Assembly (NCBI GenBank): GCA_025964255.1
Contig: JAOPZF010000200.1
Span: 1 to 64,000, forward strand
Direction of reading: 5' to 3'
DNA from: Solirubrobacterales bacterium
GTDB lineage: Bacteria; Actinomycetota; Thermoleophilia; Solirubrobacterales; 70-9
DNA length: 64,000 bases
Under the pieces are notes generated by a model. It did no database searches. It was not told the DNA's origin and saw only the letters and a list, made by a program, of their open reading frames with translations. Shown here piece after piece: positions 6,755-45,370 of the stretch. The position numbers and the translations under genes are program-made. Position 1 is the first letter of the stretch. Each line of letters begins with the position of its first letter.

Positions 6755-6969
6755 GACTGCCTCCAAGGGGCCGGGTGCGGGTGCGCGCCGGGTACCCCGG
6801 GGACAGGGCCCTGTACATGAGAATTCTCCAATAGTTCTCCCGGGACCTCTGAGTGGGTACTTCGTCAGGCCGTGATCCTCCCACGGTAGCCCGTACGCAC
6901 AGCGGAGGCCGGCGTCGCGGAGAAGGATCCAGACAGGCTGGATTCCGTCACGCCCCTCCTGCCCCGATC

Positions 6970-8985: not shown

Positions 8986-9330
8986 CGATCTCTCCTCGGT
9001 TGCCTGGATCCCGGCGGGCTCCGTCGGGTCTCTGGTCGGCATCCCCGGCCAGGTTCTTGAATGGCGCAGCCACGGGGACATGCCAGAGGACGCGTGTTCA
9101 GGGCGATGCCTCCGCTCAAGCCGACAGAAGCACTAGGCCTTCGTTCGCTGATTCGTTCCCCACCGAAATGTTCTTTCTGCGTCCTGGAGCGTCCTTCCAT
9201 GGATGCGGGACTCCAGACCGTCGGCGGATCCCTCGGCGACCGGCTTCTTGGCGGTCTGGGACCCGGGTCCGGCGAACACCAAGTCGTCGTGAAGGGGCGA
9301 ACTCCGCCGCCCCCTCGCCCATACGTCCAA

Positions 9331-9400
9331 CCTTTCGGTGCCGGGCCGGGGCTGTTTCCGCAGCGCCTCGGCCGTTTCCAGGATGGGACGAAGTTAGCTC
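9331..9400. repeat. ~75-bp hairpin-forming repeat, copy A
   Basis: CCTTTCGGTGCCGGGCCGGGGCTGTTTCCGCAGCGCCTCGGCCGTTTCC...CGAAGTTAGCTC; similar to 14841 and 24747. Confidence 0.6.
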
Positions 9401-9609
9401 GACCGGTGCGGAGAAGGTAGCCGGGATACGGATCCACCGATCACGGGCAACCGATCGCGGCCACGGGCGTCTGCGGCGAATCGCCACTCCGATTGCTCGA
9501 GTGGCGCATATCCGACGTACATCCACGTATATCCACGTACATCCCCGCTACACTCCGCCCCTGGAACCACCCGATCCGTAGCAGGTTATCCCTGCAAATC
9601 GGCCATTTC

Positions 9610-9682
9610 GGGGCTATAGCTCAGCTGGCAGAGCGCCTGGATCGCACCCAGGAGGTCGGCGGTTCGAATCCGCCTAGCTCCA
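9610..9682 (+). tRNA. tRNA-Ala (anticodon CGC)
   Basis: GGGGCTA...TAGCTCC acceptor stem with G3:U70; anticodon arm CCTGG-ATCGCAC-CCAGG; T-arm GGCGG-TTCGAAT-CCGCC; discriminator A. Confidence 0.93.
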
Positions 9683-9687
9683 TCGCC
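9641..9687 (+). repeat. attL: attL: 47-bp direct repeat spanning the tRNA-Ala 3' part
   Basis: ATCGCACCCAGGAGGTCGGCGGTTCGAATCCGCCTAGCTCCATCGCC identical to 45324-45370. Confidence 0.92.
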
Positions 9688-9822
9688 GCGTTTTCCCTGC
9701 AAATGCACCTTTGGGTCGAGACGCGAGGGTCAGAAGTAAACTGGAACCGCGAGTCTTCTCTGGTTCGAGTTCTGGCACTGGTGCCAAATTGCCGGGACGC
9801 TGGAGAGCGACCTTGCGAAGGC

Positions 9823-11787: not shown

Positions 11788-12647
11788 GTGCGAATCGCCC
11801 TCCGCAGGTCATCGCGTTTTAACAGACGGTCAACCATGGCAGAGGTGAAGGCGGCAGCCGACGCGCAGGCATAGGGCTTCCAGAGTTTGCGCTGCGCATT
11901 GTTCGCCTTTACCGCTCCGTCATCGACCTGTTTTTTTGTCTCCTGCTTTGGCTGAGCGACGATGTCGGAAATGCCGCGGATCACCATAAAAAGTGGGTCG
12001 TAGTCGACTTCGGTACGTGCGCTATGGAGAGCCCGCCCGGCGCCATAAGACTCCATGTCGACGGCAATCGCGTCGCTGAAGCGATTCAGGGCTCGTTGAT
12101 GCTCGTAGTGGTTAGGGTCTCCCATCACCTTTTCCCCAGCGAGCACCGGACCGATAAGAACCTTTGGCTCGTCTTCCCCGCCCCCGGGTCGGTCGACATC
12201 GATTCGACTAAGCCATTCAGGCGATCTTCTCACCGCCTGGGCGTGCTTCGAGCGTAGGTCCGACGACGGCTGGTCGTAGGCCATGTAGCGGTCGTGATCC
12301 CCGTCCTCGCTCAGCTTGCGGAACTCGCCGTAATGAAGGTAGCTGGCAACAACGACATCCCCCGGAGCGATCCCATCCTTCCCCTCGACTCCTCCGCCGA
12401 TGCCGCAGACGATCAAGACCTCAGGGCGGAAGTCCTCGATGAGCTCGTGGACTGCTTCCTGCGCAGCTACGTTCGAACGGTCTGCTGCTTGGGCAAGAAC
12501 AACGTCGTGGTGGTGGTCGTCGTCGGGTCTCCAGTAGCCGGTCCCGGTCTCGCAGATTGGCTCGATCCTCCGCGCGACTGCATCAAACTCCTCGTCGAGA
12601 ATCGTCAAGATTGCCAATCGACCCGTAGAAACTCGCCCCCGCTGCAT
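11784..12647 (-). CDS. PNP/UDP phosphorylase-MTAN-like nucleosidase (candidate effector coupled to the NACHT protein)
   Basis: GRLAILTILDEEFDAV; VCGIGGGVEGKDGIAPGDVVVAS; AVDMESYGAG; VIRGISDIV. 4-bp overlap with NACHT gene. Confidence 0.8.
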   Translation of the reverse strand: MQRGRVSTGRLAILTILDEEFDAVARRIEPICETGTGYWRPDDDHHHDVVLAQAADRSNVAAQEAVHELIEDFRPEVLIVCGIGGGVEGKDGIAPGDVVVASYLHYGEFRKLSEDGDHDRYMAYDQPSSDLRSKHAQAVRRSPEWLSRIDVDRPGGGEDEPKVLIGPVLAGEKVMGDPNHYEHQRALNRFSDAIAVDMESYGAGRALHSARTEVDYDPLFMVIRGISDIVAQPKQETKKQVDDGAVKANNAQRKLWKPYACASAAAFTSAMVDRLLKRDDLRRAIRT

Positions 12648-12697
12648 GCGCGAAGAATTTACAGCAATGTTGGCGTTCCGCCGCCCAAATCGGCATT

Positions 12698-13102
12698 GTG
12701 CCTCCGGTGAATGAGCCTTCGACCGAGACGTGGCGTTCGCTAACCAACACCGCCTGGGCGGTTCGCGAGCACGCCCGTGTGCATGGCAAGACGCGGGTCG
12801 GTGCCGCCGTTCTCTCCGCGCAGGGCGGTATCCACGCTGGATGCAACATCGAGCACATCTTTCGCTCCCATGATGTCCATGCCGAGGTAAACGCACTCAC
12901 CACCATGGCCGCGGTCGGCGACGGCCCAGCAGTGGCGATTGTGATCGTTGCCGAGCGCGACCGATTTACTCCCTGCGGTAGCTGCCTTGACTGGATCTTC
13001 GAGCTCGGGGGCCCCGGGACCTCAGTTGCCTTTCAAGGCACGCGCGGCGGGCCGCTTTTGGTTCTGCGGGCCGACGAGCTGATGCCGCATTACCCCGCCT
13101 GA
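12698..13102 (+). CDS. Cytidine deaminase-fold protein
   Basis: 134 aa with zinc motifs HAEVNAL and PCGSC; divergent from the PNP gene, 50 bp apart. Confidence 0.8.
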   Translation: MPPVNEPSTETWRSLTNTAWAVREHARVHGKTRVGAAVLSAQGGIHAGCNIEHIFRSHDVHAEVNALTTMAAVGDGPAVAIVIVAERDRFTPCGSCLDWIFELGGPGTSVAFQGTRGGPLLVLRADELMPHYPA

Positions 13103-14700
13103 ACCAGCTCCCGCGCGGCGCTTGTCTTCGTCGACATGAGTCCGGCGCGTCGTGCTTTCGCCCATCCCGCGCCGGTGAGACGCCAGTCGGCGCCTCGCCC
13201 TCCGTCCTCGAGCCAACCGCGACGCACCAATCGTGATCGAGCTTTACCCAGTCGAGGCTGCCATCTTGGCGGTCCGCTCGGCAGAGTCTCTATGTCGGCG
13301 GGGCCATGCTGGTCGGTGAGAGCGTCGCCGACCGCTTCCAAAACCTCGCCGCGCGAGGCGACGCCGCCCCGTTCTGCGAGTGCTCGCAAGATCTCCGGCT
13401 CATGGACCGAGCCGTCGAGCGGCCGTGCCGCAGGCTGCGGCGCCGTGCGCTCGCCGCGCACCAGCGCTTTCAGTCGCTCCCTCTCCTCCGGCGTGCGGAC
13501 CATCATGTGGGTGTAGACGCGGAGCGTGAAGCCGGGGTCGGTGTGGCCGAGCTGATGCATCACCGAGGCTGGGTCCTCGCCGCAGGCGACCAGGAGCGAG
13601 GCGAAGGTGTGTCGGAGCTTGTGGGCGCTGAGGCCGACGGGCAACGGCACATGTCCACGATGGATGAGAATCTCGTCCGCGCGTGCGAAGGCGTCGACCA
13701 GGACGCCCGCCCGAAGACTGTTGCGGTCGCGCCGACCTCCGTTGACATGCGGGAAGACGAGATCGTGCGGCCCGCCTTTTCTGGAGGTGGCCTTGTGCGC
13801 GACGAGAGTCCTGTGCAGCACGGGGCGGATCGGGATCTCCCGCAGCCCGGCCTGGGTCTTCGAGCGCCCGACCGAGATCCGCTCGTTGGCCAGGTCGATG
13901 TCCCGCCAGAGCAGGTGGCAGAGCTCGTCGGCTCTCGGCCCGGCCAGTATCAGAGCGGTGAGGATCACCTCGCGTTCCTCGCAGTGCCGACGCGGATCCC
14001 GGTCGAGCTCCGCGCCGGCGTCGAGGAGCGCCTCGATCTGGGCCGGCGCGTCGAGGTGGACGGGTCTGCGGGGCGGCACCTTCAGGCGGCGCTTGCGACC
14101 GCTGGCGGCATTCTCGGTGACGTGACGGTAGTCGAGGGCGATGCCGAGCAGCCACGCCAGAGTGTCGATCGTCTTGTTGATCGTCCTCGGGGAGAGAGGC
14201 CGCAGGACCTGACCGTGGTCGTTCCGTCGCGGGCGCCCTCGCTCGATCGCCCGCGCCCGGTCCTCGGACTCGCGCACCTTGTGGAGACGGTAGTCGTCGA
14301 CCGCCTCGGCGTCGATCTCTTCGAGCGGCCACTCCGCGAAGTAGGGGTTCAGATGGGTGAGCGCCCATTCCTCGTTCTTGGTCGTGCTCTCCGATACCTG
14401 GCCGCGGCGAGAGGCGACGATCCCGGAGGCGAAGGTGCCGAAGCGCGGGACCTCTCGGGTCGTCTCCTCCTCGCCGGAAGCCAGGCCGCGGGCGCGCGCC
14501 CTCGTCGGCGGCACCCAGAATCCGCGCCGCACGTCGGCGAGGACATTCTGCAGCTCCTCCTCGGCGGTGCGGCGATCCCATCCGTCCGAGCGACGGCCGA
14601 GCGTGATGTAGCGGCGCTCGCCGTAGGCCATGAAGCGGAGCGCGTATGCCCGGTCCCGCCGGACCCGACGCTCGACCACTTCGCCCCCTCCCCAGGGCAT
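13090..14700 (-). CDS. int: Tyrosine recombinase/integrase with C-terminal winged-helix-like extension
   Basis: Catalytic segments ILAGPRADELCHLLWRDID, HKLRHTFASLL, LGHTDPGFTLRVYTHMM; ~110-aa C-terminal extension. Confidence 0.9.
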   Translation of the reverse strand: MPWGGGEVVERRVRRDRAYALRFMAYGERRYITLGRRSDGWDRRTAEEELQNVLADVRRGFWVPPTRARARGLASGEEETTREVPRFGTFASGIVASRRGQVSESTTKNEEWALTHLNPYFAEWPLEEIDAEAVDDYRLHKVRESEDRARAIERGRPRRNDHGQVLRPLSPRTINKTIDTLAWLLGIALDYRHVTENAASGRKRRLKVPPRRPVHLDAPAQIEALLDAGAELDRDPRRHCEEREVILTALILAGPRADELCHLLWRDIDLANERISVGRSKTQAGLREIPIRPVLHRTLVAHKATSRKGGPHDLVFPHVNGGRRDRNSLRAGVLVDAFARADEILIHRGHVPLPVGLSAHKLRHTFASLLVACGEDPASVMHQLGHTDPGFTLRVYTHMMVRTPEERERLKALVRGERTAPQPAARPLDGSVHEPEILRALAERGGVASRGEVLEAVGDALTDQHGPADIETLPSGPPRWQPRLGKARSRLVRRGWLEDGGRGADWRLTGAGWAKARRAGLMSTKTSAARELVQAG

Positions 14701-14756
14701 CAGTCGACCTCGGCCCTACTGCTGGTCAGCCGATCGAAGTTCGACTCATCCCTCAT
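14700..14756 (-). CDS. Putative 18-aa leader ORF coupled to integrase
   Basis: MRDESNFDRLTSSRAEVD; AGGAGGTGG upstream; its TGA overlaps the integrase ATG (TGATG). Confidence 0.35.
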   Translation of the reverse strand: MRDESNFDRLTSSRAEVD

Positions 14757-14791
14757 CACCGGCCACCTCCTCGATCCGTGCCCGTCCGAGG

Positions 14792-15262
14792 TCATCGGCT
14801 GCGCCCGCCGTGACTAGGCTTGGGGGCGCGCCGACGCACCTCCTTCGACGCCGGGCCGGGGGCGTTGCAGCGCCCGCCGGCCGCTCTTCTGCTGCCTCGG
14901 TCGAAGTTATCGGGCTGCCCCCGGTTCCGCTTGCGGGGACTCCCGCAGCGTGCACCTGCACCCGTCCGGTCGTCGTCGGCCCGGGCCAACCTGAGGCGAT
15001 CGGCGACCTCGTCCGGGTCGAACCGCAGCCGAGGTCTCGGACCGTCGCCGAGCCGCCGGGCACCGAGTGCCTTGGCGTTTTCGTAGACCCACCGGCGCGA
15101 GACTCCCCAGAGGCGCGAAACCTCGGCCGCCGTGAGCATCCTCTGCTCGCTGTCGTTTGGACCGGCGGACCCCTCGGCCCGACCGAGCAGCTCCGACAGC
15201 CGCAGGGCGAGCGCCTCAATCGACTCGGGGGCCAGCCGCACCTCCTTCGGGCAGGCGCTCAT
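14792..15262 (-). CDS. Helix-turn-helix DNA-binding protein (excisionase/MerR-like)
   Basis: MLTAAEVSRLWGVSRRWVYENAKALGARRLGDGPRPRLRFDPDEVADRL. Confidence 0.75.
   Translation of the reverse strand: MSACPKEVRLAPESIEALALRLSELLGRAEGSAGPNDSEQRMLTAAEVSRLWGVSRRWVYENAKALGARRLGDGPRPRLRFDPDEVADRLRLARADDDRTGAGARCGSPRKRNRGQPDNFDRGSRRAAGGRCNAPGPASKEVRRRAPKPSHGGRSR
14841..14916. repeat. ~75-bp hairpin-forming repeat, copy B (inside HTH gene)
   Basis: TCCTTCGACGCCGGGCCGGGGGCGTTGCAGCGCCCGCCGGCCGC...TCGAAGTTATCGGGCT. Confidence 0.55.
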
Positions 15263-16143
15263 CGGCTCCCGTCTCCTATCCCCAGCCAGTCGACCTCCCG
15301 CCTCGACGCCAGCGCGTCGATGAAGATCGGCGCAAAGGGTCCCTCCCCACAGAGGTCCTCCAGCAGGCATACGCAGATTGCGGGATCCGGCGAGGAGCCG
15401 ACCGCCGGATCGGAGGCGAGGAAGGCGAGGACCGCCTCGCGCCGGCGCCGCAGGAGGTCGGGCCGCGACCCCGCAAGGACGCAGAGCACCGAGGGGAAGG
15501 CCGGGTAGCGCTCCCGCCACAGCGGCTCCCCGCCGGCCCCTTCGGCACGCCGCAGCCGCGCGTAGAGCGCGAGCTCGCGAGCGAGCCCCTCGGCCGAGCG
15601 GGTCGCCCGGTCGAGCTCGAGGAAGCGCTGCTCGACCACCGTCTCCGTGCCCTCCGTACGCAGGTAGGTGAGGACCGCGTCGGCGACCTTGAACCTCCGC
15701 CTCCTCCCACCTGCCGCGCTCATCGGGTGGGCGACCTCGTGGCGCCAGGAGAGTGCCCCGAACTCCTCGCCCCGCTCCCGCGCCGCCGCCATGAAGGAGA
15801 CCCCGACGTCGTTGACCGCGAGGGTGTGGGCCATCAGGCGTCCCGCGGCGGAGTGGCGGTCGAGGATCGGCGGCTCCCCTTCGAGCGCACCGGCCGAGCG
15901 CACCACCTCGACCCCGCGGGCGGTCGCGAACCAGATCCGCTGGGCGCGCAGGCCACTCGCCCGATCGGCGAGGCCTTCCCCGCCGAGGTCGGCGAGGAGC
16001 TGCTGCGCGCGCCGGATACCCAGCCCGGGCATATGCATCGCACGGACCTGGGCGGCGGTCAGGGTTCGGTGCTGGGCGAGCGAGGCCAGCACCTCAAGCC
16101 ACGGCGACCCTTCCTCGGCGCGGGTAGGGAAGGCCGGGCTCAC
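15259..16143 (-). CDS. Replication-relaxation (Replic_Relax) family-like protein
   Basis: LASLAQHRTLTAAQVRAMHMPGLGIRRAQQLLADLGGEGLADR...HTLAVNDVGVSF...ADAVLTY; coupled to the ATPase gene. Confidence 0.7.
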   Translation of the reverse strand: MSPAFPTRAEEGSPWLEVLASLAQHRTLTAAQVRAMHMPGLGIRRAQQLLADLGGEGLADRASGLRAQRIWFATARGVEVVRSAGALEGEPPILDRHSAAGRLMAHTLAVNDVGVSFMAAARERGEEFGALSWRHEVAHPMSAAGGRRRRFKVADAVLTYLRTEGTETVVEQRFLELDRATRSAEGLARELALYARLRRAEGAGGEPLWRERYPAFPSVLCVLAGSRPDLLRRRREAVLAFLASDPAVGSSPDPAICVCLLEDLCGEGPFAPIFIDALASRREVDWLGIGDGSR

Positions 16144-18740
16144 CGCGAGCCTCCGAAGCGGATCGGGCCGCGCCCGACCTCCTTCGACCCTCGGCCTCCG
16201 AGCAGCCCTTCGAGAGCCTCCCGGATCCGCGCATCGAGAGTCTCCTGATGGGCGAGCGCGTCGGCCGCCGTCCTCATACGGCCCGAGCTCCGGATCGCCG
16301 CCGCCAGATCGTCCACCTTCCCCGGGCTCCCCTCCCCGAGCGCATCCTCGACTCGCACCCCACGCAGGGCGAAGGGCGCCGAGAGCTCGCCACCCGAGGT
16401 CACCTGGGCGACGAAGTTGAACCGCCGCAGGCGGGTCAGCGCCGCGGCGTCCACCCCGCCGCCGAGCTCCCTGGCGATCAGAGCCGAGGCTCGGGAGTTG
16501 AGCGCCGAGGCGAGTAGATGGGAGCGGTTGGTGGTGAGCGCATGGAGCGTCGCCGGCCGCAGCCGCTCGGGGTCCTGGTTCAGGAAGATCGCCCGCAGAC
16601 CGAACTTCGCCGACTGCTCGAGCAGCGCGGCGAGGCTCTCGCCGTCGTAGGACTGGACCTCGTCGAAGACGGCGACGAACTTCTTCCTCCGCCCCGGGTC
16701 GAGTGCCGCCCGGGAACGCGCGGCATGGAGGAGGTCGAAGGCGAGGAGGCCCGCGATCAGCCGCTCCCGCGGCCCGCCGGAGCCTGGGCAGGCGAGGACG
16801 ATCAGCCCCTCGTCCATCGCCTCGCGCACCGAGAAGTTGCCCTCGCTCATGCCGAGGAGCGCGGTCACCGAGCGCGAGGTCCGCAGCCGGTCGACCAGGT
16901 TGGTCACCGGCGTCACCGCGTCGGGGGAGAGCAGCGGGAAGCGGCCGGTCCAGAAGGCGCGGGCATGCGCCGGGAGGAACGGGATCACCGCCGCGCGCCA
17001 GGACTCGTCGGTCAGCAGGGTCGGCAGCTGGAAGATCGTCGGTGCGATCTCCGCCGGCACCACCTCGGCCACGGCCGCCAGGGCACTCGCCGCGTGGGTG
17101 GTGAGGTTGATCGCCCGGGTCGACTGCTCACCCCAACCGACCGCCGCCGAGAAGGCGGCGACGATCGCCTCGACGCGCGCCTCGGGATCGGCGCCGCCGA
17201 GCCCGAAGAGGTTCCAGGCAGGCTGGGAATCTGGACCGCCCGGCCCGAGGTCGATCTCGACCACCCGACCTGCCACCTCGGGATCCGTGAGGTAGGGCCG
17301 GATCCGCTCGAGCGCATCGCCGTGGGGGTCGAGGAAGAGACCACCGTGGCCGGAGCGGACCAGGTGCGTGAACATCGCGATCGCCGACTCCGTCTTGCCG
17401 TAGCGCGAGCGCCCGGCGACGTAGGTGAAGAAGCTCTCCTCGGTCCGCACCCCGACGATCCGCTCGCCGCCCTCGCCGAGGACCTTCCCGACCGGGATCA
17501 GATCCTCGCGGCCTGGGGCGAAGCGTTGAAGGGGCGGCGGCGAGGACAGCACCGCGCCCGAGCGCAGGACCGCCTCGACCTGGCAGGAGACCGTCGGCGG
17601 CTTCAGGAACCCGGCGACCTCGGCTGCGGTGACCACGTTCCGCCGCGACGCCCTGAAGAGCCCGGTGTCGAGGCGGCGGTCGAATCGCCCACGCCTCCCC
17701 GGCAGGTCGGAGCCGAGGAAGGAGAGCCCCGGGACCGGCAGGCCGCGGACCCGAAGGTGGTTGCGGTCCTCGGTCGTGGCGAAGGCGGCCTGCAGGTCGC
17801 GCATCACGGCCTTGGCCCGGTTGCGATCGGGAGCGCCGACGCGGAGCAGGATCTGGAGCTCGAAGAGAGTCGCGCCCTCGCGGAGCTTCGCCTCGAGGCC
17901 CTTGCCGAGGGCGCGCCGGTCGTAGAGCTCGAGCGGGCCGGTCCGGCCCGACCCTGGCCGATCGAAGAGGTCCGGGAACGACGGCTCGCGGTCGAGACGC
18001 GCCCGCCGGGCCTTGCGGCGCATGCGCCGGCGCAGCCTCGCCGCCCGCATCCCCGGGGCGGGCAACAGGTCGACGCAGACCTCCGCTTCCGCACCCTGGT
18101 CACGGCGTGCCCCGGCGAGCGCGGCGGCGAAGGGGGCGAGCGGGTCGGGGTCGAGTGGCGGACGGGCCAGCGGCTCGAAGGCGGGCCGGGCCAGGACCAT
18201 CTCCGCGCGGACGACCCCACGCGCGTCCTCCTCGGCCCGACCGGCGTCGGGGAGGACGTCGGAGGCGTCCCGTACCTCGACGCCTCGGTAGGCGCGCAGC
18301 GCGCTGCGCAGCCGGGATAGGTCCCGGTCGGGGACCTCGACCAGGTAGGCCATCCGCCCGTCCGCGGTGTTGGTCAGCCGCACCCGGACCGCGCTCGCCG
18401 GTCGGTCGGCCCAGGCCGAGATCCGTCGCGAGCCTGCCGCGAGGGACGAGGCGAAGGCCGCGACCGTCTCGGGTCGCGGCTCGAAGCCGTCGGCCGGGAC
18501 GATCGCGACCGCGCGCCGCGAGGCGAGCGTGCGGCGGGTCTGCCTGATGCGGTGTGTCGCCGGCGCCGTGGCGATCGCGAGAGCACCGAGGGCGATGGGG
18601 ATGAGCGAGCGGAGATGGTCGAGGACCGCGTGAGGATGGACATGGACATGAGAGGCGAGATGCCAGAGCGCCAGCCCGACGATCGCGGCCGCGACGGCGA
18701 TGAGCAGACGCGGGTCTTCCTTGCGGGGAGCAGAGTTCAT
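16140..18740 (-). CDS. VirD4/TraG- or HerA-like conjugation ATPase (ATP-binding transfer protein)
   Basis: N-terminal TM segments; Walker A YVAGRSRYGKTESAIAMF; GGLFLDPHGD; Walker B KKFVAVFDEVQSY. Confidence 0.8.
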   Translation of the reverse strand: MNSAPRKEDPRLLIAVAAAIVGLALWHLASHVHVHPHAVLDHLRSLIPIALGALAIATAPATHRIRQTRRTLASRRAVAIVPADGFEPRPETVAAFASSLAAGSRRISAWADRPASAVRVRLTNTADGRMAYLVEVPDRDLSRLRSALRAYRGVEVRDASDVLPDAGRAEEDARGVVRAEMVLARPAFEPLARPPLDPDPLAPFAAALAGARRDQGAEAEVCVDLLPAPGMRAARLRRRMRRKARRARLDREPSFPDLFDRPGSGRTGPLELYDRRALGKGLEAKLREGATLFELQILLRVGAPDRNRAKAVMRDLQAAFATTEDRNHLRVRGLPVPGLSFLGSDLPGRRGRFDRRLDTGLFRASRRNVVTAAEVAGFLKPPTVSCQVEAVLRSGAVLSSPPPLQRFAPGREDLIPVGKVLGEGGERIVGVRTEESFFTYVAGRSRYGKTESAIAMFTHLVRSGHGGLFLDPHGDALERIRPYLTDPEVAGRVVEIDLGPGGPDSQPAWNLFGLGGADPEARVEAIVAAFSAAVGWGEQSTRAINLTTHAASALAAVAEVVPAEIAPTIFQLPTLLTDESWRAAVIPFLPAHARAFWTGRFPLLSPDAVTPVTNLVDRLRTSRSVTALLGMSEGNFSVREAMDEGLIVLACPGSGGPRERLIAGLLAFDLLHAARSRAALDPGRRKKFVAVFDEVQSYDGESLAALLEQSAKFGLRAIFLNQDPERLRPATLHALTTNRSHLLASALNSRASALIARELGGGVDAAALTRLRRFNFVAQVTSGGELSAPFALRGVRVEDALGEGSPGKVDDLAAAIRSSGRMRTAADALAHQETLDARIREALEGLLGGRGSKEVGRGPIRFGGSR

Positions 18741-20104
18741 GGACGGACCTCCTTGGAGGACTTAGATTTCGGGATACCGCCGTCGCCGCCGGGCCGCATG
18801 AGGCGCGGGATCCCCGGCCTCCGGCGACGAGCGCCGGCGAAGGGCATGGCGACGTCCGTCGCGATCCCCGTAACGTCGTCCGTCGCGACGTTGATGCGAC
18901 GCCGTCTCCGGGAGCCCCGGCGGGCGGCACGCGGCCCACTCGACCTCCTTCGTCGTCGCTCACCGTTGACGGAGCGCTCCTCAACCTGACCGTTTCGCAG
19001 TGACGGCTCCATCGCCGCGCCGAGGACGACCCGTGCCACCGGCGGGCAGACGGCGTTTCCGATCTGTCGGAAGCGGGCGGTGCGCGGACCCTGCCACGGA
19101 TAGTCGTGCCGGAAGCCCTGGAGGATCGAGGCCTGCTCGACGGTGACCCGGACGGTCTCCCGACGGACCCGGTCCGGCCGGTGGCCGTTCCGCGGCCAGC
19201 AGCCCGGCCCGAACACCCGCGGCTCGCCGAGGACCGTGGTCGCCGGTCGTCGGCGAGCCCAGTCCGGACCGTTCCGACCCGTGTCTTCTCGGCGGGTCCC
19301 CTTTTCGATCCTCCAGGTGCAGGAGCCGCCGATCACGGTGAACGACGGTCGGTCGAGCGATCGGGGTTCGCCGCCCGGGATCCTCCCGCCGTGGGTGTGG
19401 TTGTTGCGAAGGGTCGCCGGCTCTTCCCCCCAGCCGAGCGCCTCGGCCATGCTCACCCAGTCGGGCAGATGCGCCTCCTCCTCGGGCACCGAATGGCGCC
19501 GTGGATGGAAGGAGCGATGGGTGGGCTCCGGGAACGAGACCGAGCCGTCGAGGGAGGCGATGAGGAAGGCGCGCTTCCGGACCTGCGGCACCCCGAAGCG
19601 CTCGGCGGAAAGGATGCCGGTTGCACACCGATAGCCGTGCCCCTTGAGGAGCGTCGCGAAGAGCTCCCAGAGCTCCAGGACCGCGGGGACCTGCTCGAGC
19701 GCGATCCAACGGGGGCGCAGCGCGAGCGCCCAACGGAGGGGCTCCACCGTCAGCAGGGAGCGCTCGTCGGCGCAGGCCTCCAGATGGCGCACGCGCGAGT
19801 CGAGGCCGCCGGCGAGCTCGTGGGCGCAGGCGATCACCTCCGGGCGATCCTGGCGCCCCAGCTTCTTGCCGGCGATCGACCACGCCTGGCACGGAGGCGA
19901 GGCGATCAGTCCCCAGAGCGGGGCGAAGGCCCCCGGGACGAGGTCGGCGACGTCGGCTTCCAGCCGATCATGGCCGGCGGCTCTGGCGGTCGCGCAGGCG
20001 GTCGGGTCGAGCTCGATCCCGAGCGCTCCCGGTCCGGCGCCCCGCAGGCCCTCCTCCCAGCCGCCGGCGCCGGCAAAGAGGTCGAGGATCGGCCGCTCAG
20101 CCAC
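18737..20104 (-). CDS. DNA (cytosine-5-)-methyltransferase with Arg-rich C-terminal tail
   Basis: PILDLFAGAGGWEEGLRGAG; IASPPCQAWS; FRQIGNAVCPPVARVV; ATGA overlap with the ATPase gene. Confidence 0.88.
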   Translation of the reverse strand: MAERPILDLFAGAGGWEEGLRGAGPGALGIELDPTACATARAAGHDRLEADVADLVPGAFAPLWGLIASPPCQAWSIAGKKLGRQDRPEVIACAHELAGGLDSRVRHLEACADERSLLTVEPLRWALALRPRWIALEQVPAVLELWELFATLLKGHGYRCATGILSAERFGVPQVRKRAFLIASLDGSVSFPEPTHRSFHPRRHSVPEEEAHLPDWVSMAEALGWGEEPATLRNNHTHGGRIPGGEPRSLDRPSFTVIGGSCTWRIEKGTRREDTGRNGPDWARRRPATTVLGEPRVFGPGCWPRNGHRPDRVRRETVRVTVEQASILQGFRHDYPWQGPRTARFRQIGNAVCPPVARVVLGAAMEPSLRNGQVEERSVNGERRRRRSSGPRAARRGSRRRRRINVATDDVTGIATDVAMPFAGARRRRPGIPRLMRPGGDGGIPKSKSSKEVRP

Positions 20105-20467
20105 AACGCTCCTCGAAGATCTCGAAAGGGCAGGCGCCCGCCTCCGCGTGCTGCTTCCGGAACCCAATATCTGACATCTGCTCCTCGCCTCCGTCCGACT
20201 CGCGCGCCCGATCGGCGCCTCCGCCAAGACAGGGGAACGAGGAGGCGAATTGGCCCCCTCCCGTACTCATCGACGTTTGTGCAGTCGCCCCGCGTCCATC
20301 GCGGGCGCACGGCCCCGAAGTTGATCGACCTCTCGAGCCGGCCTTCCTGAGATTCACCCTCGCTCGCCTCCATCCCGCCGACGAGGCCGACAGGTGTCGT
20401 CACCTCACGAGCGGCTCGCTTTCGGTTGACGCAAGGAGGAGTACTTGCCGGCGGGCGCCGAATCCAC

Positions 20468-36345: not shown

Positions 36346-39300
36346 TTATGAGCCCTGGCGTGCGGTCTCGGCGGCTGGCATCCCGCAGAAGCGCATGAAG
36401 TCACACTCTTCGCAGCGACTGTGCAACCTGTCGTCGCGCGGTTTGCGCGTGGGTCCCGACTCGAACGTTCGTTCCTTTATCGATCGGGCGGTGCCGGCGA
36501 CGACGTGGCGTGCCTCCGCCAACGCATCGTCGTCGAGGGGGACCTTGAGCTCGCGACGGTCCGGGTCAGCCTCGCCGAGATACCGCACCAAACCTTGTTC
36601 GGGCTCGTACTCGAGCTCCTTCTTCGCGGCGACGCCGTAGAGGCTGATCTGCAGCTGCATCTCCTCGCGGTCGAGTTTCGAGCTGACGTCTGACTCGGGT
36701 TCACCGGACTTGAAGTCGACCAAGGTCACGGTCGGAGGGTCATCGTGTCTGACCAGATCGATCGCTCCGGAGATCAGCACCTGCTCCTCCTCGATCAGCG
36801 TCTCGAACTCCCGCTCAGGCTCGAATTCGAGCTCGGCCAACTCGGTGGCGTAGTTCAGGACGTAGTCGGAGACGATCTCAAGGCCGCGGTTCTGCATACG
36901 TTCGAGCGGCTCTCCGGTCGTGTAACGGAGGTAGAACAGACCGGCGTCAACAAGTTTCTCGAGCTCGGGGCGTAGCTGTCCGGAATCGTTAATTGCGATC
37001 TCCGACCAACGCGCCGGTTCGGAGTGAATCGCGCGCAGCAGGTTGTGGACGCCGCGCCCATAGCCAAAGGCCTGGTCGATCGTCGGTGCAAACCCCAGCA
37101 CCTTGCGCAGATAGAAGTCGTGTGGACACTCAAGGTAGTAGCGCAGATCGGAGAACGTGCTGACGAGTCGGTTCTCGCGCTTGGGGGCGGCCTCGACCAA
37201 CCGGACCGGACCGATTGCGAGATCCATGTCGAAGGTCTCGCCTCCGACCTCCTCGATCAAACCTTGGACGGCTTTGAAAAAAGGCGACGACTTCCCTGAG
37301 CAGGTGACTGCCAGGAACCGCTCTGCACGGGTCAGGGCGACGTACATGAGCCGCCGCTCGTTGTCGAGGTTCTCGTTGTCGGCGAGTTCGGCCGGGTCAA
37401 TTTTGTCAAAAACCGGCGACTCAAAGGGCAGACTCTCGACCCGTTTGGCAAAGGAACTCGGGAAGCGTCGCGAACAGACGTCGGCGAGGAAGACGGCTGC
37501 GTACTCTGCCCCCTTCACCGAGTGCACCGTGCTGATCGTCACGGCTTCGGGCTGCTCAAGGAGCGGCGCCTCTTCCAGGCGGGCCTGCTGAGGGGCCCAG
37601 TTCCCGAGCGCGACGACCTGATAGGTGAAGTCTGAGGGCGAGGTCCATCCCGGCGTCTCCATGCTCTGGACCAAGGCACTCAGTGCTCCGAGGTGGAACA
37701 TGGCAGTGTCGCCGCGAGGACCGCTCCCGTCCCAGGCATGAACTCCTGCCTCGGAGAGGATCAGGTGAAAGATTTCCTGGGGGAAGACCCGCCGAACCTT
37801 GCCGGTTCTAGCTAGGAATGCGCGCAGGTCGGGCGTTGCCAACATCTCTCTCTCGGCCTTGGAGGCGCCGATCTCCTTCTCGATGCGCGCCCGGAAGAGC
37901 CTCGCCGCCAGCATCAGACGGTAGGCGACGTCGTCCACGACAAGGAGGCCGTCGGACGCAAGTGCGGCTGCGGCGGCACGTAACACCGCCTCCGGTATCG
38001 GCTCGCAGTCGAGGACCTGGGTGATCCGCCCCGGGAGGGAACGCGGATCTTTGGAGTTGCCGTAGAACTTCTCGATTCCGGCCATCACTGCGAGGGCCGC
38101 CATGACGAAAAGGATCTCGGGCTGCGAGAAGAGGTCGCCGCCGGTGAACACCGCCGGGATCCCCTTGGCCTGGAGCGCCCTCATGTAGGTGCGGGCATCG
38201 GTCCCCGAACGGATGAGGATTGCGACGTCGGCGAAGGTCAGCCCCCTCTCCTCCCCCGCGGCGACGTCCATCGCGGCACCGAGACCTGCCTGAGGATCGG
38301 CGAGAGTGAGGATCTTCTCGGCGATCCAATCCGCCTCGTCAGTGCGCTCCTCGAAAGCCAGCGCGGCGATATGACCGTCGGCCTCGTCCTCGCGGGAGGT
38401 CCGCCCGTGCTCCATGTCGGGGCTGCTCATAGACTGGACTGCGCCGATCGAGGCAGCCCAGCGGTTGGCGATCTCGATGATCCGAGGGGTCGAGCGGAAG
38501 TTGTGGGTCAACTCGATGACCTCGCCGTAGGGCTCAGCGCTCAGCTCTTCGAAGATGTCAGCCATGATCTCGACCCGACCGCCGCGCCACGCAAAGATCG
38601 CCTGGCGGTGATCTCCGACACAGGTCAGGTGTCCGGTCTCACCGAGGATCGCCGCTATGACCCGGCTCTGCACCTGGTTGATGTCCTGCACCTCATCGAC
38701 GACTAGGTGTGAGGTTCGCTCCCGCAGCGCTTCGATCAATCCCTCGTCGCGACGAAGCAGCCGCAGGAGCTCCGACTGGGAAGTGCTGTGGTCGAGGAAA
38801 CGGCGACAACGCTCGAAGGCGTAGAGCCGACCGGCGGCAAGCTCGAAAGCCTCGGCCACATCACCGACACCGACGTCGGTTTTCATCTCGGCGCCATGAC
38901 ACCAATCACGCTCATCTCCAAGACGCGCCGGAGGCGTCGGCGTCGGCAGTACGACCTCGAGCTCGTCGTACTCGTTCAGGAGGTCATACGCTTTCAGAAA
39001 GCGACTGATCGTCGCGAACTGACCGACTTTTTTGCCACTCTCGGCGCTCATCGCCGATTGCAATTTCGGGAGACCCAGGGTGCCGTGATAGCCGCGCTGA
39101 ACGAGCGCCACTCGCGCCCCCTCCTCGAGCACATCGAGGTTGTGGTACTCGTCCGAGGCCAGGTCGCGGAGCATTTTCACGCAGAAGCCGTGGATGGTCC
39201 CGACGTACATGTCCCCGAGCGTCACGTCCTCTCCGACCGGAGTCACCCGCTCGACGAACTGTCGGATTCGAAACTGCATCTCCTCCGCCGCGCGGCGAGT

Positions 39301-39492
39301 GAAAGTGAAGGCGACAATCCGGCTCTTCGGCACACCATCGACGGCGACCCACCATGCAATGCGTCGAGCCATGACGTCCGTCTTGCCCGATCCCGCTCCG
39401 GCCACGACCATCAACTTGCGCTGCGGTGACTGAACGGCCTCGGCCTGACTGGCCGTAAGACCGTCGAGCAAGATTGACGCGGGATTGGTCAC
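36346..39492 (-). CDS. UvrD/AddA-like helicase fused to PD-(D/E)XK RecB-type nuclease with candidate Fe-S cysteines
   Basis: VVAGAGSGKTDVMARR; AFTFTRRAAEEMQ; LVVDEVQDINQVQ; FLADVCSRRFPSSF; TVTLVDFKSGEP; CX2CX5C in SRCEECDFMRFCGMP plus upstream Cys. Confidence 0.9.
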   Translation of the reverse strand: MTNPASILLDGLTASQAEAVQSPQRKLMVVAGAGSGKTDVMARRIAWWVAVDGVPKSRIVAFTFTRRAAEEMQFRIRQFVERVTPVGEDVTLGDMYVGTIHGFCVKMLRDLASDEYHNLDVLEEGARVALVQRGYHGTLGLPKLQSAMSAESGKKVGQFATISRFLKAYDLLNEYDELEVVLPTPTPPARLGDERDWCHGAEMKTDVGVGDVAEAFELAAGRLYAFERCRRFLDHSTSQSELLRLLRRDEGLIEALRERTSHLVVDEVQDINQVQSRVIAAILGETGHLTCVGDHRQAIFAWRGGRVEIMADIFEELSAEPYGEVIELTHNFRSTPRIIEIANRWAASIGAVQSMSSPDMEHGRTSREDEADGHIAALAFEERTDEADWIAEKILTLADPQAGLGAAMDVAAGEERGLTFADVAILIRSGTDARTYMRALQAKGIPAVFTGGDLFSQPEILFVMAALAVMAGIEKFYGNSKDPRSLPGRITQVLDCEPIPEAVLRAAAAALASDGLLVVDDVAYRLMLAARLFRARIEKEIGASKAEREMLATPDLRAFLARTGKVRRVFPQEIFHLILSEAGVHAWDGSGPRGDTAMFHLGALSALVQSMETPGWTSPSDFTYQVVALGNWAPQQARLEEAPLLEQPEAVTISTVHSVKGAEYAAVFLADVCSRRFPSSFAKRVESLPFESPVFDKIDPAELADNENLDNERRLMYVALTRAERFLAVTCSGKSSPFFKAVQGLIEEVGGETFDMDLAIGPVRLVEAAPKRENRLVSTFSDLRYYLECPHDFYLRKVLGFAPTIDQAFGYGRGVHNLLRAIHSEPARWSEIAINDSGQLRPELEKLVDAGLFYLRYTTGEPLERMQNRGLEIVSDYVLNYATELAELEFEPEREFETLIEEEQVLISGAIDLVRHDDPPTVTLVDFKSGEPESDVSSKLDREEMQLQISLYGVAAKKELEYEPEQGLVRYLGEADPDRRELKVPLDDDALAEARHVVAGTARSIKERTFESGPTRKPRDDRLHSRCEECDFMRFCGMPAAETARQGS

Positions 39493-39844
39493 AGTTCAAT
39501 CGGCAGCCGGGAAAAGGTGCGAATCCTTCAAGGTCAACCCCGCAGCGAAGGGAGACTCCTCTTGAACGGCTGATCTTACTCAACCAATCAGGTGTCGTGG
39601 GACATTTTCCAATATGACCGGGGCACTAGCCCTGGCGCGGGTCGAACTTCGACTACCACGCGGCCCACATGGCCAAGCTCGAGCTTGAGCGAACTGTGGG
39701 GCGGGACCGTCCGGGCGCCGATCGCCATATGCCAGTGGTCGGCGGGGTCGCGCGCCAAGGCCTGCTTCTTGTGGTGGCCCGTGGGGCTCACCGACCATCA
39801 GTCCGATTAGAAGAGGAATGATGCCTGCTGCGCACGCCACTCAG

Positions 39845-41989
39845 CTATCGCTGAGGCGGGCTCTCATCCTCATCGTGGCGACCGAGCGCCTGCCGGTAAC
39901 GCTCCACGTAGCGACGCACCGACATCGGCAAGAACTGAGCCTCTCCGGGCGGAAGATGCTTGGCTCTCCGGATGCCCTGCAAGTTGGCGAGGATGATCGA
40001 CCGCAGCTCGGTATCGAGTTGACGACCCAATGCCTTACACATCTCGTGCGCGTTGAAGACGACGGCCGGGATGATCTTCACGAGCATCTTCCGCGACATG
40101 AAGTTGTGGTCGCGGTCCGCCGAGAGGCCGGTGCGATCGAGGGCGCCGACGATCAGCCGCACGTTCCGCTCGACCCGTTCGCTCGCCTGCTCGCGGCCCA
40201 TGGCCCGGAGCGACTCCATGAACTCGTAGCGGGGCGCCACGGGCGCCGGATCGCCGCCGGTGTGACCGATGTAGAAGGAGACGTAGTCGGCATGCCCGCA
40301 CATGAAGACGTAGTTCTCGTCCTCCAGGTCGGAGAACTGCGTCAGCCATGGCGGCTGGGGGAGGACGTTCGACTGATAGTCCTCTTCTTCGCGCCCCTGC
40401 TTCTTGCGGAAGAACTCGACCCAGGCGGCAGCGTCGTGATCCTCGGGGCCACGGTAGTAGTACTCGGTCAGTGAGTGGAAGGGCCGCATCACCTGGAAGG
40501 TGACGAAGTGCTGGCCCGGGCCGAGCCGGTCGTTCAGCGTCGACAGGAGCAGGCTCATCGCCTCGTTGTCGGCAATGTGCGCGGCCCGGGTCAGGTCCCA
40601 GCCTGCGTCGATCGGCTCGCCACGGGTGATCACAGAGCCGCGTGAGATGTACCAGTTGAGAACGGTGGCGAAGAGCTGGGCCTGAGTGGTCTTCACCGCC
40701 CCCGCGAAGACAACCGGGGCTGGCGCCGAGCGGACTCGGTCGAGGATGTCGCGGCTCAGGGAGATTCCCTCACGGACCATGTCTCCGTAGGCGTTATCTC
40801 GGCTGTAGTGCCCGTACTCGCGCTCCTGCGGGGTGATCGTGCCGTCGCGGAAGTGCACCCGGGGTTTCGGCAGGGTGGCCCCCGTCCCGATCGCCCGCGC
40901 GTCTCCGGAGAAGACCGCCTTGTCGGCACGCCACTGGACGACGTCGGTGGCGCACTTGGCCATGTGTTCGTATTCGGACTCCGAGAGATACCGGTACATG
41001 AAGTGGGCCATCACCATCCCGCGATTCGACTTGTCGTCGATCGCGCTGCGGCTCATCGGCACCGAGTAATAGGGCCGCTCGCCCTGCGCCAGGCGCTGGG
41101 AGGCGCCTGGCTGGACGTAGGCGACGCTGTTGTTGAAGGTCACAATCTGGCTGCCGACATCGTCGATGAATCCCTGGGCCGTATTGATCTGAAGGACGCT
41201 GGCGTAGGTGCTGCCGTCGGTGCCGGCCACAGCAGTCCGGTTCCATTCCTCCCGATCACGCACCCCGTTGACGTCGATCAGCTCGATCACACGCTCGCCG
41301 AAGACGCGCTCGGATATCTCGGCGCGGAGCAGCGCCTCATCGACACGGACCCACGGCGGCCCGGGCCTCGTCATCGTATGGGGGGCGACGAGCTCATAGG
41401 GCGCGTCGAGGGCCCGACGCGAGATCCCGAGCATCCGGTAGGCCAGGCGATGGAACTCCTTGAGCTGCCCCCTAACGCGCCCCTCGAGCTCTGGGTCGCG
41501 GAGCTCGGCGGAGGCCAACATCTCGACGTCTGCCTCGAGTTCGCGCGCCCGATCAAGCAGCAGGCCGATCATCAGTTCCCTGGGATCCTCCTCTAGCAAT
41601 GCCTCGGCGGCGCGGACCAGGGTGTCCTTGCGGCGCTCATCAAAGTACTCCCGGGCGTCGATCACCCTCGCAATCGCGTCGGTGGGCTCGAGCTCCTCCA
41701 TAAGGGCGTAGACGTCGTCGAGGCTGAGAGCCGTCTCGGGGTGGAGGTAGGGGGCGACAACGAACCGCCGCTCGCCGTCGTCGGCGGCCGCCTCTTCGAG
41801 CCGGCCGGTCGCCTGCATGCGGGCGAGGAGCTTGTAGTAGGCCTGGATCGTGACCTCGTCTCCCAGCTGCTCGCCGACGCCCGTGTAGATGTCCTTGACG
41901 CTGGCGCCGCCCTCGCCAGCAGCCCGCACGAACTCGAGGATCGTGCGTTCGCGCTCGTCGACCGAGATGCGACGCGCGGGGACGCTCAC
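39845..41989 (-). CDS. NurA-like nuclease with N-terminal winged-helix region
   Basis: VAGTDGSTYASVLQ (NurA-type DGS), TFQVMRPF, FMSRKMLVKIIPAVVFNAHEM; GTGA overlap with HerA stop. Confidence 0.65.
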   Translation of the reverse strand: MSVPARRISVDERERTILEFVRAAGEGGASVKDIYTGVGEQLGDEVTIQAYYKLLARMQATGRLEEAAADDGERRFVVAPYLHPETALSLDDVYALMEELEPTDAIARVIDAREYFDERRKDTLVRAAEALLEEDPRELMIGLLLDRARELEADVEMLASAELRDPELEGRVRGQLKEFHRLAYRMLGISRRALDAPYELVAPHTMTRPGPPWVRVDEALLRAEISERVFGERVIELIDVNGVRDREEWNRTAVAGTDGSTYASVLQINTAQGFIDDVGSQIVTFNNSVAYVQPGASQRLAQGERPYYSVPMSRSAIDDKSNRGMVMAHFMYRYLSESEYEHMAKCATDVVQWRADKAVFSGDARAIGTGATLPKPRVHFRDGTITPQEREYGHYSRDNAYGDMVREGISLSRDILDRVRSAPAPVVFAGAVKTTQAQLFATVLNWYISRGSVITRGEPIDAGWDLTRAAHIADNEAMSLLLSTLNDRLGPGQHFVTFQVMRPFHSLTEYYYRGPEDHDAAAWVEFFRKKQGREEEDYQSNVLPQPPWLTQFSDLEDENYVFMCGHADYVSFYIGHTGGDPAPVAPRYEFMESLRAMGREQASERVERNVRLIVGALDRTGLSADRDHNFMSRKMLVKIIPAVVFNAHEMCKALGRQLDTELRSIILANLQGIRRAKHLPPGEAQFLPMSVRRYVERYRQALGRHDEDESPPQR

Positions 41990-43668
41990 GACTTCTCCGT
42001 CGGCGAGGTGAACGCCCGCTTCTCGGCCCAACCATGCGCGGCGAGGTCTCCGAATATGTCCGGCGTCGCGCCGCCGTGGGTGGTCTTTCGCTCTCGCACC
42101 TGCAGCAGCGTGGCATGCCGCACGGTCTCGAAGGCGCCCGTCAGAACGCAGACGCCCTGCGGCAGCTTCGGCAGCGACCGGACCAGATCCTGGGAGGCGT
42201 CGGAGAACACGCCTTTCAAGGCGTCGAGCTGGTCGGGCTCGATCGCGTGCAGGAAGCGGGTCAGCAGGCGCTTGAGGATCGAGCGGTCGACGTCGGAGGG
42301 ACTCTGGGTGGTCAGGATCAGGCCGAGCCGATAGTGACGACCGACGCGGGCGATCTCCCGAAGCACCTGCGTGGTCACCGCTGAGTCGTCGGAGGGGGCG
42401 ACGAGGTGGAACTCGTCGATGCTCAGGACCGTGAAGGGGATCGCCCGCTGCCGGGCGAGCTGCTGCAGATCGCGCGCAACCGAGGCGCAGATCAGCCGCA
42501 GCTCGCCGATCGGCATCCCCGTGCAGTCGATGTTGATCACTGCCCCCGGGACGAGCTCCGCGGACCAGTCGAACGGCTCGCCCAGGAACGGCAGGCGCTC
42601 GAGGCTCCGGGTCCGGAGCTTGGTCGGCTCGACCGTGCGCCGGTCGGGCTGCCGATCGGGGCCTTTCCCAGTCGTCATCTCGAGCGTGAACGCGCAGTCC
42701 TCGATCTGGCCGACAAGGTCCTCGACGCCGAAGTGCTTGCGCTTCCCGTTCGCGACCTCCCGGAGGAGGACTTCATGGGAGAAGCGGAGGAGGGTCTCCA
42801 TGTTCGTCCCACGGTTGATCGAGGGGACCGCATCGACGACGTCGGCCGGGGAGAGCGCCGAGAGCGGGAGGGTGAAGCCAGCCTCGCCCGGGACCAGGTT
42901 TCGGCCGCCAAGCTCCCCCGTCGCTTGCCTCATCTCGCCGTTGACGTCGATGTTCACCTGCGGGACGCCCCAGGAGTGGAGCTCCTCGGCGAGGACGCCG
43001 CGGGTGTAGCTCTTGCCGGAGCCGATCCCCCCGCCGATGAAGATGTGGCGCTGAACGACCTCCTTCGCCGGGACGACCGGGACGTCCACGGCCCCGTAGA
43101 CAGTCCCCATGTCGAGCCCTTCCTCGGGCACCTCGCACAAGCCGAGCGCGGCCACCGTCAGCTCGGGACCGGCCTCGAAGACGCGGGCCCCTGCGAGCGG
43201 CATCGTCGAGATCGCCCGGATGTGGTCGAGCCTGCCGTCGTCGCCCAGAATCGCCTCCTCAAGCGGCTCGGCCTGGGCGAGGCGATAAATGACCGTCGAG
43301 GCTCCCTCGGTCGCGTAGGACGTCCCGAACGGGAGAGCCTCGCGGAGGGTCGAGGAGGCGGCGTCCTCGTGCGGGTTGAACTCGCGGACGTCTTCGACCC
43401 TGGCGAGCAGGAAGACGTCCTGGCCGTATTCGGCCCGGGCCTCGATGGCGACGAAGCGGCCCGGCGCGCTGAAGCGGCCCGGGTCCATCCGGAACCGGAC
43501 GGAGAAGAACGAAGGGGACGCCTCGTCACTGATTACGCGGCCGATCGCCAGTCGGCCACCGGCCGCGGGGTCCTCATCGGTCGCATCGAGGCCGATCGTC
43601 TCGACATCGGCCGGTTGTGAGGCGTCGTCGTTTGCCTGCGGACCCTGATCGGGGAATGCATCTGCCAT
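41986..43668 (-). CDS. HerA/DUF87-type ATPase
   Basis: HIFIGGGIGSGKSYTRGVLAEEL; VNIDVNGEM; FTVLSIDEFHLVAP; RLGLILTTQSPSDVD. Confidence 0.88.
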   Translation of the reverse strand: MADAFPDQGPQANDDASQPADVETIGLDATDEDPAAGGRLAIGRVISDEASPSFFSVRFRMDPGRFSAPGRFVAIEARAEYGQDVFLLARVEDVREFNPHEDAASSTLREALPFGTSYATEGASTVIYRLAQAEPLEEAILGDDGRLDHIRAISTMPLAGARVFEAGPELTVAALGLCEVPEEGLDMGTVYGAVDVPVVPAKEVVQRHIFIGGGIGSGKSYTRGVLAEELHSWGVPQVNIDVNGEMRQATGELGGRNLVPGEAGFTLPLSALSPADVVDAVPSINRGTNMETLLRFSHEVLLREVANGKRKHFGVEDLVGQIEDCAFTLEMTTGKGPDRQPDRRTVEPTKLRTRSLERLPFLGEPFDWSAELVPGAVINIDCTGMPIGELRLICASVARDLQQLARQRAIPFTVLSIDEFHLVAPSDDSAVTTQVLREIARVGRHYRLGLILTTQSPSDVDRSILKRLLTRFLHAIEPDQLDALKGVFSDASQDLVRSLPKLPQGVCVLTGAFETVRHATLLQVRERKTTHGGATPDIFGDLAAHGWAEKRAFTSPTEKS

Positions 43669-43765
43669 TTGGCGTCTCCTCGCTTGATTAACCCGTTGCC
43701 GGTTAGAGGTTAACGCCGCCCTTCGGACGGATTAAAATTCGTCTGCGCTGCAAACGTTGGAGTTA

Positions 43766-45043
43766 CTAATCCAAAGCTCCGACCGAGTCCAATTGGGACG
43801 CGAGGTGGCGGCCGATCGACTCGGCGAGGGGAAGCGGGAACGCGTTGCCAACCAGACGCTCCTGCAGCGCGCCGTGGCCTACGAAGGAGAAGTCGTCCTC
43901 GATTCCCTGCAGGCGGGCGGCCTCGCGGACAGTGATCGTCCGCGACTCGAGCGGATGCGTGAAGCGGCCGCACCCCGCGTTGTGGAAGTTGGTGGTGATC
44001 GTCCGCGAAAGGCCCCGCCGGTGCAGCCTGGCGTAAGCCTGGCTGTAGTAGCGACGCTCGGTCTTCAGCCTGTCCCCCTCAGGGATCGACGCCAGTCGGG
44101 CCACCGTCTCCTCGGCGTGGCCCCAGGCCTCGTGGTTCGCGGGGTCGCGCTCCCCCGCCCCCAAGGCGATCGCGTATTCGCTGGGGGTCGCGACCGGGAC
44201 CCCTCGGCCCGGGTCCAACGAAGGCAGATCGCCGATTGCATCCCATACCGTGATTAGGTTCCGGAGGAGGTCCGGTCGGGGCGGGAGCCCGTCGGCTGGG
44301 TCGTAGCGTTCCTCATGCCTCGCTCCGATCTGCGGGCTCGCGCCCAAGGTCTTGGCGAGATTCGCCGCCGTCGGCGTAACGAGGTCGCCGAGGCCGTAGG
44401 CGAACACCTCGGCGCTTCCCAGGTGACTGGCCGGGGGAAGCGTCGGCTCGACGCCGAGCTCACGGTCGATGCCGATCACCACCGCCCGTTCCCGCGTCTG
44501 TGGCAGGCCGTGAAGTGCCGCGTTCACGATCCCGGCTTTGATCGCGAAACGCCCTTCAAGCGCCTCTTCCTGTGCCCGGAGCTCCTCCCTACGAAGAATT
44601 GCTGGCACGTTCTCCATGACGAAGAACCGCGGAGTCAGCCTCCGAACTACATCGAAGAACGAGGCGAGGAGCCTGTTGCGCTCATCATCACCTCGTCGAC
44701 GGCCAGCGGCGGAAAAACCTTGGCACGGCGGGCATCCGACAACTCCTGAGATCTCACGACCGTCGGCACACTCCAACAGCTGGGCGATCTCCAGCTCGGC
44801 GACGTCTGCGGCAAGATAATCGACGTGAGAATGGTTGCGCTCCCAGTTGCGTCGGGCGTCGAGATCGATGTCGACGAGCGCTAGAGGCTCGAAGCGATTC
44901 GTCCGCTCGAATCCACGCGCCACACAGCCGATCCCGGCGAAGAGATCGACGAAGCCGGCCTTTACCGCGGTATTGGCCTCGGAGTTGCCATCGGGCCGCG
45001 GCGAGACGGTTGGATTGTCACGCTCAAGAACCATTGGTGCCAT
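43766..45043 (-). CDS. DNA (cytosine-5-)-methyltransferase (Dcm-type)
   Basis: GFVDLFAGIGCVARGFER; GCPPCQGFSAAGRRRGDDERN; FVMENVPAIL; LPQTRERAVVIGI; VGNAFPLPLAESIGRHLA. Confidence 0.92.
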   Translation of the reverse strand: MAPMVLERDNPTVSPRPDGNSEANTAVKAGFVDLFAGIGCVARGFERTNRFEPLALVDIDLDARRNWERNHSHVDYLAADVAELEIAQLLECADGREISGVVGCPPCQGFSAAGRRRGDDERNRLLASFFDVVRRLTPRFFVMENVPAILRREELRAQEEALEGRFAIKAGIVNAALHGLPQTRERAVVIGIDRELGVEPTLPPASHLGSAEVFAYGLGDLVTPTAANLAKTLGASPQIGARHEERYDPADGLPPRPDLLRNLITVWDAIGDLPSLDPGRGVPVATPSEYAIALGAGERDPANHEAWGHAEETVARLASIPEGDRLKTERRYYSQAYARLHRRGLSRTITTNFHNAGCGRFTHPLESRTITVREAARLQGIEDDFSFVGHGALQERLVGNAFPLPLAESIGRHLASQLDSVGALD

Positions 45044-45323: not shown

Positions 45324-45370
45324 ATCGCACCCAGGAGGTCGGCGGTTCGAATCCGCCTAGCTCCATCGCC
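45324..45370 (+). repeat. attR: attR: displaced tRNA-Ala 3' fragment, 47-bp direct repeat
   Basis: Identical to 9641-9687; 5' half of tRNA missing. Confidence 0.92.

Follow-up and report, generated by a model that had tools for sequence, protein, structure and literature searches.

The window considered here, a stretch of 64,000 nucleotides from contig JAOPZF010000200.1 of a Solirubrobacterales bacterium, carries at 36346-45043 a candidate defence locus of four minus-strand open reading frames (ORFs). All four run in the same direction and are open throughout, which bears out the co-oriented genes described in an initial annotation of this DNA. The gene at 43766-45043 encodes a C5-cytosine DNA methyltransferase (m5C MTase, 425 amino acids (aa); PF00145 E=1.2e-45) with intact catalytic motifs (DLFAGIG, GCPPCQ, ENV, QTRER and GNA); its start is the ATG at 45043, with a TTG at 45073 as an alternative. 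A HerA-type ATPase/translocase follows at 41986-43668 (560 aa; DUF87 E=5.6e-12, HerA_C 3e-8), starting at an ATG preceded by an AGGAG-like site. Its Walker A motif, GGGIGSGKS, occupies residues 212-220, and its PADLOC matches are led by HerA (8e-17) and include mad8 (9e-15). The third gene (39845-41989) encodes 714 aa from a GTG at 41989 that lies on the herA stop; this GTGA overlap agrees with the translational coupling proposed earlier. The fourth gene (36346-39492) encodes a 1048-aa fusion of a UvrD-family SF1 helicase and a C-terminal Cas4/RecB/AddB-type PD-(D/E)XK nuclease (PF00580, PF13361, PF12705), with profile matches to UvrD-helicase (2e-46) and PDDEXK_1 (7e-23). It is set off from the third gene by a 352-bp gap (39493-39844), in which six-frame translation and tblastn found neither Vsr nor a degraded methylase, and no recognisable gene. 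A promoter and terminator scan of the locus gave signals not clearly above chance. Profile matches uphold the MTase, the HerA and the helicase-nuclease of the initial annotation, while its naming of the third protein as NurA found no database match. Among endonuclease families, only PDDEXK_1 of the helicase was recognised in the four proteins and the gap, and the unassigned third gene leaves an unrecognised endonuclease possible.

The third protein is probably a NurA-type nuclease, judging by its ordered motifs and its coupling to HerA. Numbered from an upstream TTG, these motifs are VAGTDGS (D272), VHFRDGTI (D396), RYE (601) and AH (661), and 200-odd N-terminal residues precede the first of them. 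A loose DGS...DGTI...RYE...AH pattern occurs in 13 of 26 NurA-family matches, in 0 of 701 background ORFs and in 12 of 20000 shuffles, counts that overstate the evidence because the pattern was composed after inspecting the window protein. Searches of Pfam, PADLOC, NCBIfam and PDB returned nothing beyond chance, the PF09376 NurA domain gave no profile match, and HMM-HMM comparison with 26 NurAs gave no match, although the same comparison worked for a NurA-like protein from another locus (L053, described below). No homologues were found in plasmids, phages, viral contigs, 297 phylum genomes and 399 class genomes, or in an 85,462-species genome collection searched by exact 8-mer patterns only. 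The best matches in class genomes (E about 0.03) were short and were not supported, and a single-sequence AlphaFold model was uninformative (pLDDT 38). The gene could instead encode a different nuclease partnering HerA, or an unrelated sensor, giving a HerA system with a new effector beside the methylase and helicase-nuclease. The lack of any match to NurA by profile, HMM-HMM comparison or PDB search, the failure to find a homologue of the protein, and the long stretch ahead of its first NurA-like motif would fit such a protein, whereas the order of the DGS, DGTI, RYE and AH motifs and the position coupled directly after HerA would not; we consider it unlikely, on a scale that overlaps the other readings discussed below and does not exclude them.

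With the helicase as query, 25 close relatives were found in genomes and viral contigs from many phyla. Most are full-length (23 relatives), at ~47-56% identity to the window helicase, and the next viral matches stand at ~25%; judged by these matches, the family is sharply bounded and horizontally mobile. The alignment contains 228 invariant residues, including Walker A/B and other helicase motifs. Nuclease residues H816, D912, D926, K928, Q948 and Y952 are invariant across the aligned members, and C789, C1027, C1030 and C1036, kept in all of them, form an Fe-S nuclease signature of the AddB/Cas4 sort. The AlphaFold model of the helicase-nuclease (pLDDT 80, pTM 0.81) has AddA, UvrD, RecB and AdnAB as its top Foldseek matches, and the predicted fold is AddA/RecB-like. 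In the helicase tree the window falls in a fully supported subclade with L033, L043, L051 and L053.

The initial annotation had suggested looking for conserved four-gene neighbourhoods; what recurs in the 25 relatives is a unit of MTase, UvrD-Cas4-like helicase-nuclease and Vsr endonuclease. An m5C methylase lies next to the helicase in 23 of 25 relatives, immediately upstream in 19 and divergent with Vsr in between in 4 (L035, L050, L054, L070). Vsr itself is next to the helicase in 21 of 25. The relatives lacking the methylase (L038, L044) are both on short contigs, and two others lack Vsr alone (L032, L036). The family methylases are on average 55% identical to each other, and methylase and helicase distances are correlated (Mantel r=0.49, with 0 of 200 permutations as high). 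Carriers of the cassette include records named Phycisphaeraceae, Verrucomicrobia, Bacillota, Gammaproteobacteria and Flavobacteriales, among others. Among the neighbours of the cassette are BREX PglZ-BrxL (L040, L046, L047), type III restriction-modification (R-M) Res/Mod genes (L033, L034), GmrSD (L040, L045), type I R-M genes and other R-M or PADLOC candidates. At the three BREX loci, PglZ and BrxL stand directly upstream in the same direction as the methylase/UvrD-Cas4/Vsr genes, an arrangement that suggests an extended BREX operon. A MORC/Z1 operon was also considered for the long co-directional genes upstream of the methylase in relatives and proved wrong in the main, the genes being BREX PglZ-BrxL, type III R-M with one GHKL ATPase, or GmrSD. 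The Dcm/UvrD-Cas4/Vsr context was predicted in 2017 as a component of defence systems (Hudaiberdiev et al., PMC5704561). No experimental follow-up of the cassette was found, a weak result given that the literature searched excludes most subscription journals.

The window locus shares with the predicted context the helicase-nuclease fusion (PF12705), an m5C methylase partner and defence-island contexts including type III R-M, and it differs in having no Vsr, a methylase of another lineage, and the herA and nurA-like genes in between. None of 20 family Vsr proteins had a significant tblastn match within the whole window. This absence does not exclude the window from the cassette, because the 2017 analysis reports Vsr at "several" loci only (PMC5704561); the main text of that paper mentions neither HerA nor NurA. 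The window methylase is co-directional with the helicase and is separated from it by herA and the nurA-like gene, an order seen only here among the relatives. A HerA-NurA pair is nearby in 1 of 25 relatives (L053) within the DNA available, where many relatives lie on short contigs and absence is not always informative; beyond this, L032 has no more than a short ATPase of phage type. The L053 genes run NurA-like gene, HerA and Vsr, convergent to methylase and helicase, and the NurA-like protein of this locus matches PF09376 at E=0.036, with an HMM-HMM probability of 89%. A relative of that protein, a recognisable NurA (PF09376 3e-7), overlaps a HerA frame elsewhere in the class (L095, 5095-8312). 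In another genome of the same genus, a cluster at 4942-9864 (L101, G640:C21) consists of a SIR2-like gene, HerA, an m5C methylase that shares 80 nt with HerA, and an HNH gene; it lies within a few kb of a tRNA-Ala 3' fragment, and of 17 HerA loci inspected across the class no other has an m5C methylase next to it. The gene set that the initial annotation took to be new is thus new in part: its two-gene core had already been predicted as defence (PMC5704561), and the HerA-NurA insertion is seen only here. The locus is a new variant of the Dcm/UvrD-Cas4 cassette and not a new four-gene system.

Comparison with other known systems places the locus near several of them. Like the HerA-NurA pairs of archaea and Deinococcus (PMC9960219; PMC12977600), the window joins HerA by translational coupling to a protein in which NurA motifs stand in order. 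Unlike them, its pair sits inside a methylase/helicase-nuclease operon of a mobile island, and its NurA-like protein is below profile detection and longer, at 714 aa against 350-520 aa for most NurA-containing frames seen here. The antiphage pairs SIR2-HerA and DUF4297-HerA (PMC11291478) likewise join a HerA ATPase to a nuclease-type effector, putative in the window; the window partner has neither a SIR2 nor a DUF4297 domain by profile search, and a methylase and UvrD-Cas4 are present. AddAB, RecBCD and AdnAB share fold and catalytic motifs with the 1048-aa protein, whose family is separate and tied to m5C methylases and is not a housekeeping recombination enzyme. PADLOC models of GajB from Gabija match the helicase parts only; GajA is missing among the PADLOC matches listed for the four proteins, and the window helicase is fused to PF12705. 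Type II R-M MTase models of PADLOC match the methylase, but the cognate site-specific restriction endonuclease that a classical type II system would have beside it was not recognised. Of the MADS genes (mad1-mad8), only mad8, in HerA, is among the matches listed for the four proteins.

The locus had also been placed at the right end of a mobile element, and it does adjoin the right attachment site of an island of 35.7 kb, bounded on both sides by a perfectly repeated 47-bp stretch from the tRNA-Ala 3' part. On the plus strand, attL (9641-9687) lies within and just past an intact tRNA-Ala(CGC) gene (9610-9682), and attR (45324-45370), the 47-bp copy, is just upstream of the MTase gene. A minus-strand mobility block at 13090-20227 comprises a tyrosine integrase with an Mrr_N-like tail (13090-14700, minus strand; PF00589 9.9e-17), an HTH_17 gene, a Replic_Relax protein, an ATPase and a methylase. 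The ATPase is HerA/TraG-like (866 aa, with a hydrophobic N-terminus) and overlaps the second m5C methylase (18737-20227). Just inside attL, at 9823-12896 on the minus strand, a NACHT-type NTPase gene with HEAT repeats overlaps a nucleosidase-like gene that matches PNP_UDP_1 and PDC-M60C (3.5e-18); this pair is probably a second defence system of the island, at the opposite end from the operon. Genomes of the same genus (G558:C7, G640:C21, G695:C2) contain many copies of the tRNA-Ala 3' fragment at 80-100%, several per contig and some with an attR-like flank, a pattern suggestive of a hot spot where islands accumulate. A search for an empty site with the right flank was uninformative, matching only an SDR gene or scattered tRNA fragments. 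An island equipped with integrase, replication-relaxation and HerA/TraG-like genes might also be served by a DNA repair or element-maintenance operon, in which end resection or recombination would aid island replication or integration and the methylase would shield the island from host restriction. The classical role of HerA-NurA is end resection (PMC9960219), and AddAB/RecBCD-like folds are those of repair enzymes. Such a role is nevertheless improbable, as the mobility genes lie at the opposite end of the island, the cassette in relatives stands beside R-M and BREX systems and not beside repair genes, and Vsr usually accompanies the methylase.

Genomic context suggests a defence role for the operon. 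We give an even chance to a composite anti-invader operon on an integrated mobile island, where methylation labels the cell's own DNA and leaves unmarked DNA to be degraded by two motor-nucleases. The methylase would mark host sites, and the UvrD-Cas4-like helicase-nuclease, built like AddA/RecB/AdnAB, would load on invading DNA that is unmarked or broken and degrade it processively. HerA would drive duplex DNA into the NurA-like nuclease for destruction, the two forming a second degradative machine. The HerA-NurA-like pair would be an addition to a Dcm/UvrD-Cas4(/Vsr) cassette, placed between its methylase and helicase, with the usual Vsr missing. The methylase is the most likely source of sequence specificity, since neither a further target-recognition domain nor a site-specific endonuclease was recognised. 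We infer the self-marking, the restriction of unmarked DNA, the cooperation of the two nucleases and the nuclease activity of the third gene product. A tighter version, in which all four proteins form a methylation-licensed complex and HerA-NurA and UvrD-Cas4 act together on unmethylated DNA, giving bacterial HerA-NurA a restriction-type role, is tentative and rather doubtful. The composite operon draws support from the methylase and Vsr found beside this helicase family in most relatives, the correlated MTase and helicase divergences, the BREX, R-M and GmrSD neighbours, the intact helicase, nuclease and Fe-S residues with their AddA/RecB-like fold, the GTGA-coupled pair inside the cassette, and the SIR2-HerA-methylase cluster of the same genus. 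L053 adds an independent case in which HerA and a NurA-like protein accompany the cassette. The modification-guided DNA degradation suggested in the initial annotation would fit the parts. The earlier proposal of a defence system holds in that all recognisable parts modify or degrade DNA, the mobile island also carries the NACHT/nucleosidase pair, and relatives of the MTase/helicase-nuclease pair sit in defence islands; it does not hold for four-gene conservation.

Several observations weigh against the composite operon. The four-gene set was seen once, and for the third protein neither a homologue nor a match to the NurA profile was detected. The window methylase, with a mean identity of 28.5% to 22 family MTases, falls outside the family clade and beside the methylase of a same-genus SIR2-HerA-methylase operon (a weak placement, with sparse sampling and long branches); on this comparison it is not of the family's usual lineage. 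A single transcript across the 352-bp gap is uncertain, and the helicase may be transcribed separately. The GC content at synonymous third codon positions (GC3s) is 0.89 for HerA and 0.86 for NurA against 0.77 for the methylase and 0.78 for the helicase, with non-overlapping intervals, and this split into two pairs suggests that HerA-NurA is an inserted independent module. Linked methylase-helicase pairs in the relatives differ in GC3s by up to 0.09, and the split was accordingly downgraded from proof of insertion to supportive evidence. The main rival is that two independent defence modules are nested by chance, a self-sufficient, stand-alone HerA-NurA having been inserted into a Dcm/UvrD-Cas4 cassette without the two working together mechanistically. 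Besides the GC3s and the gap before the helicase, it can call on the lack of HerA-NurA in 24 of the 25 relatives, as far as their available DNA extends, on a HerA-effector pair that works alone elsewhere (PMC11291478), and on a separate pair of SIR2-like and HerA genes in the same genome (L243, contig C162, 3442-6472; SIR2 judged by eye). It has more difficulty with an insertion that is precise, co-directional and disrupts neither neighbour, with the second, differently arranged combination in L053, and with the HerA next to an m5C MTase in L101. We regard nesting as a real possibility that falls short of even, and the evidence does not clearly separate it from the composite operon.

For the family, the survey turns UvrD-Cas4 with m5C methylase and Vsr into a sharply defined, phylum-hopping unit that stands beside BREX, type III R-M and GmrSD and is apparently untested. 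For HerA-NurA, a defence role has been proposed (PMC12977600) and a HerA-nuclease pair has been proven antiphage (PMC11291478). The literature openly debates whether the pair serves repair or defence (PMC12977600; PMC9960219), and the window locus would allow a direct test of the defence hypothesis.

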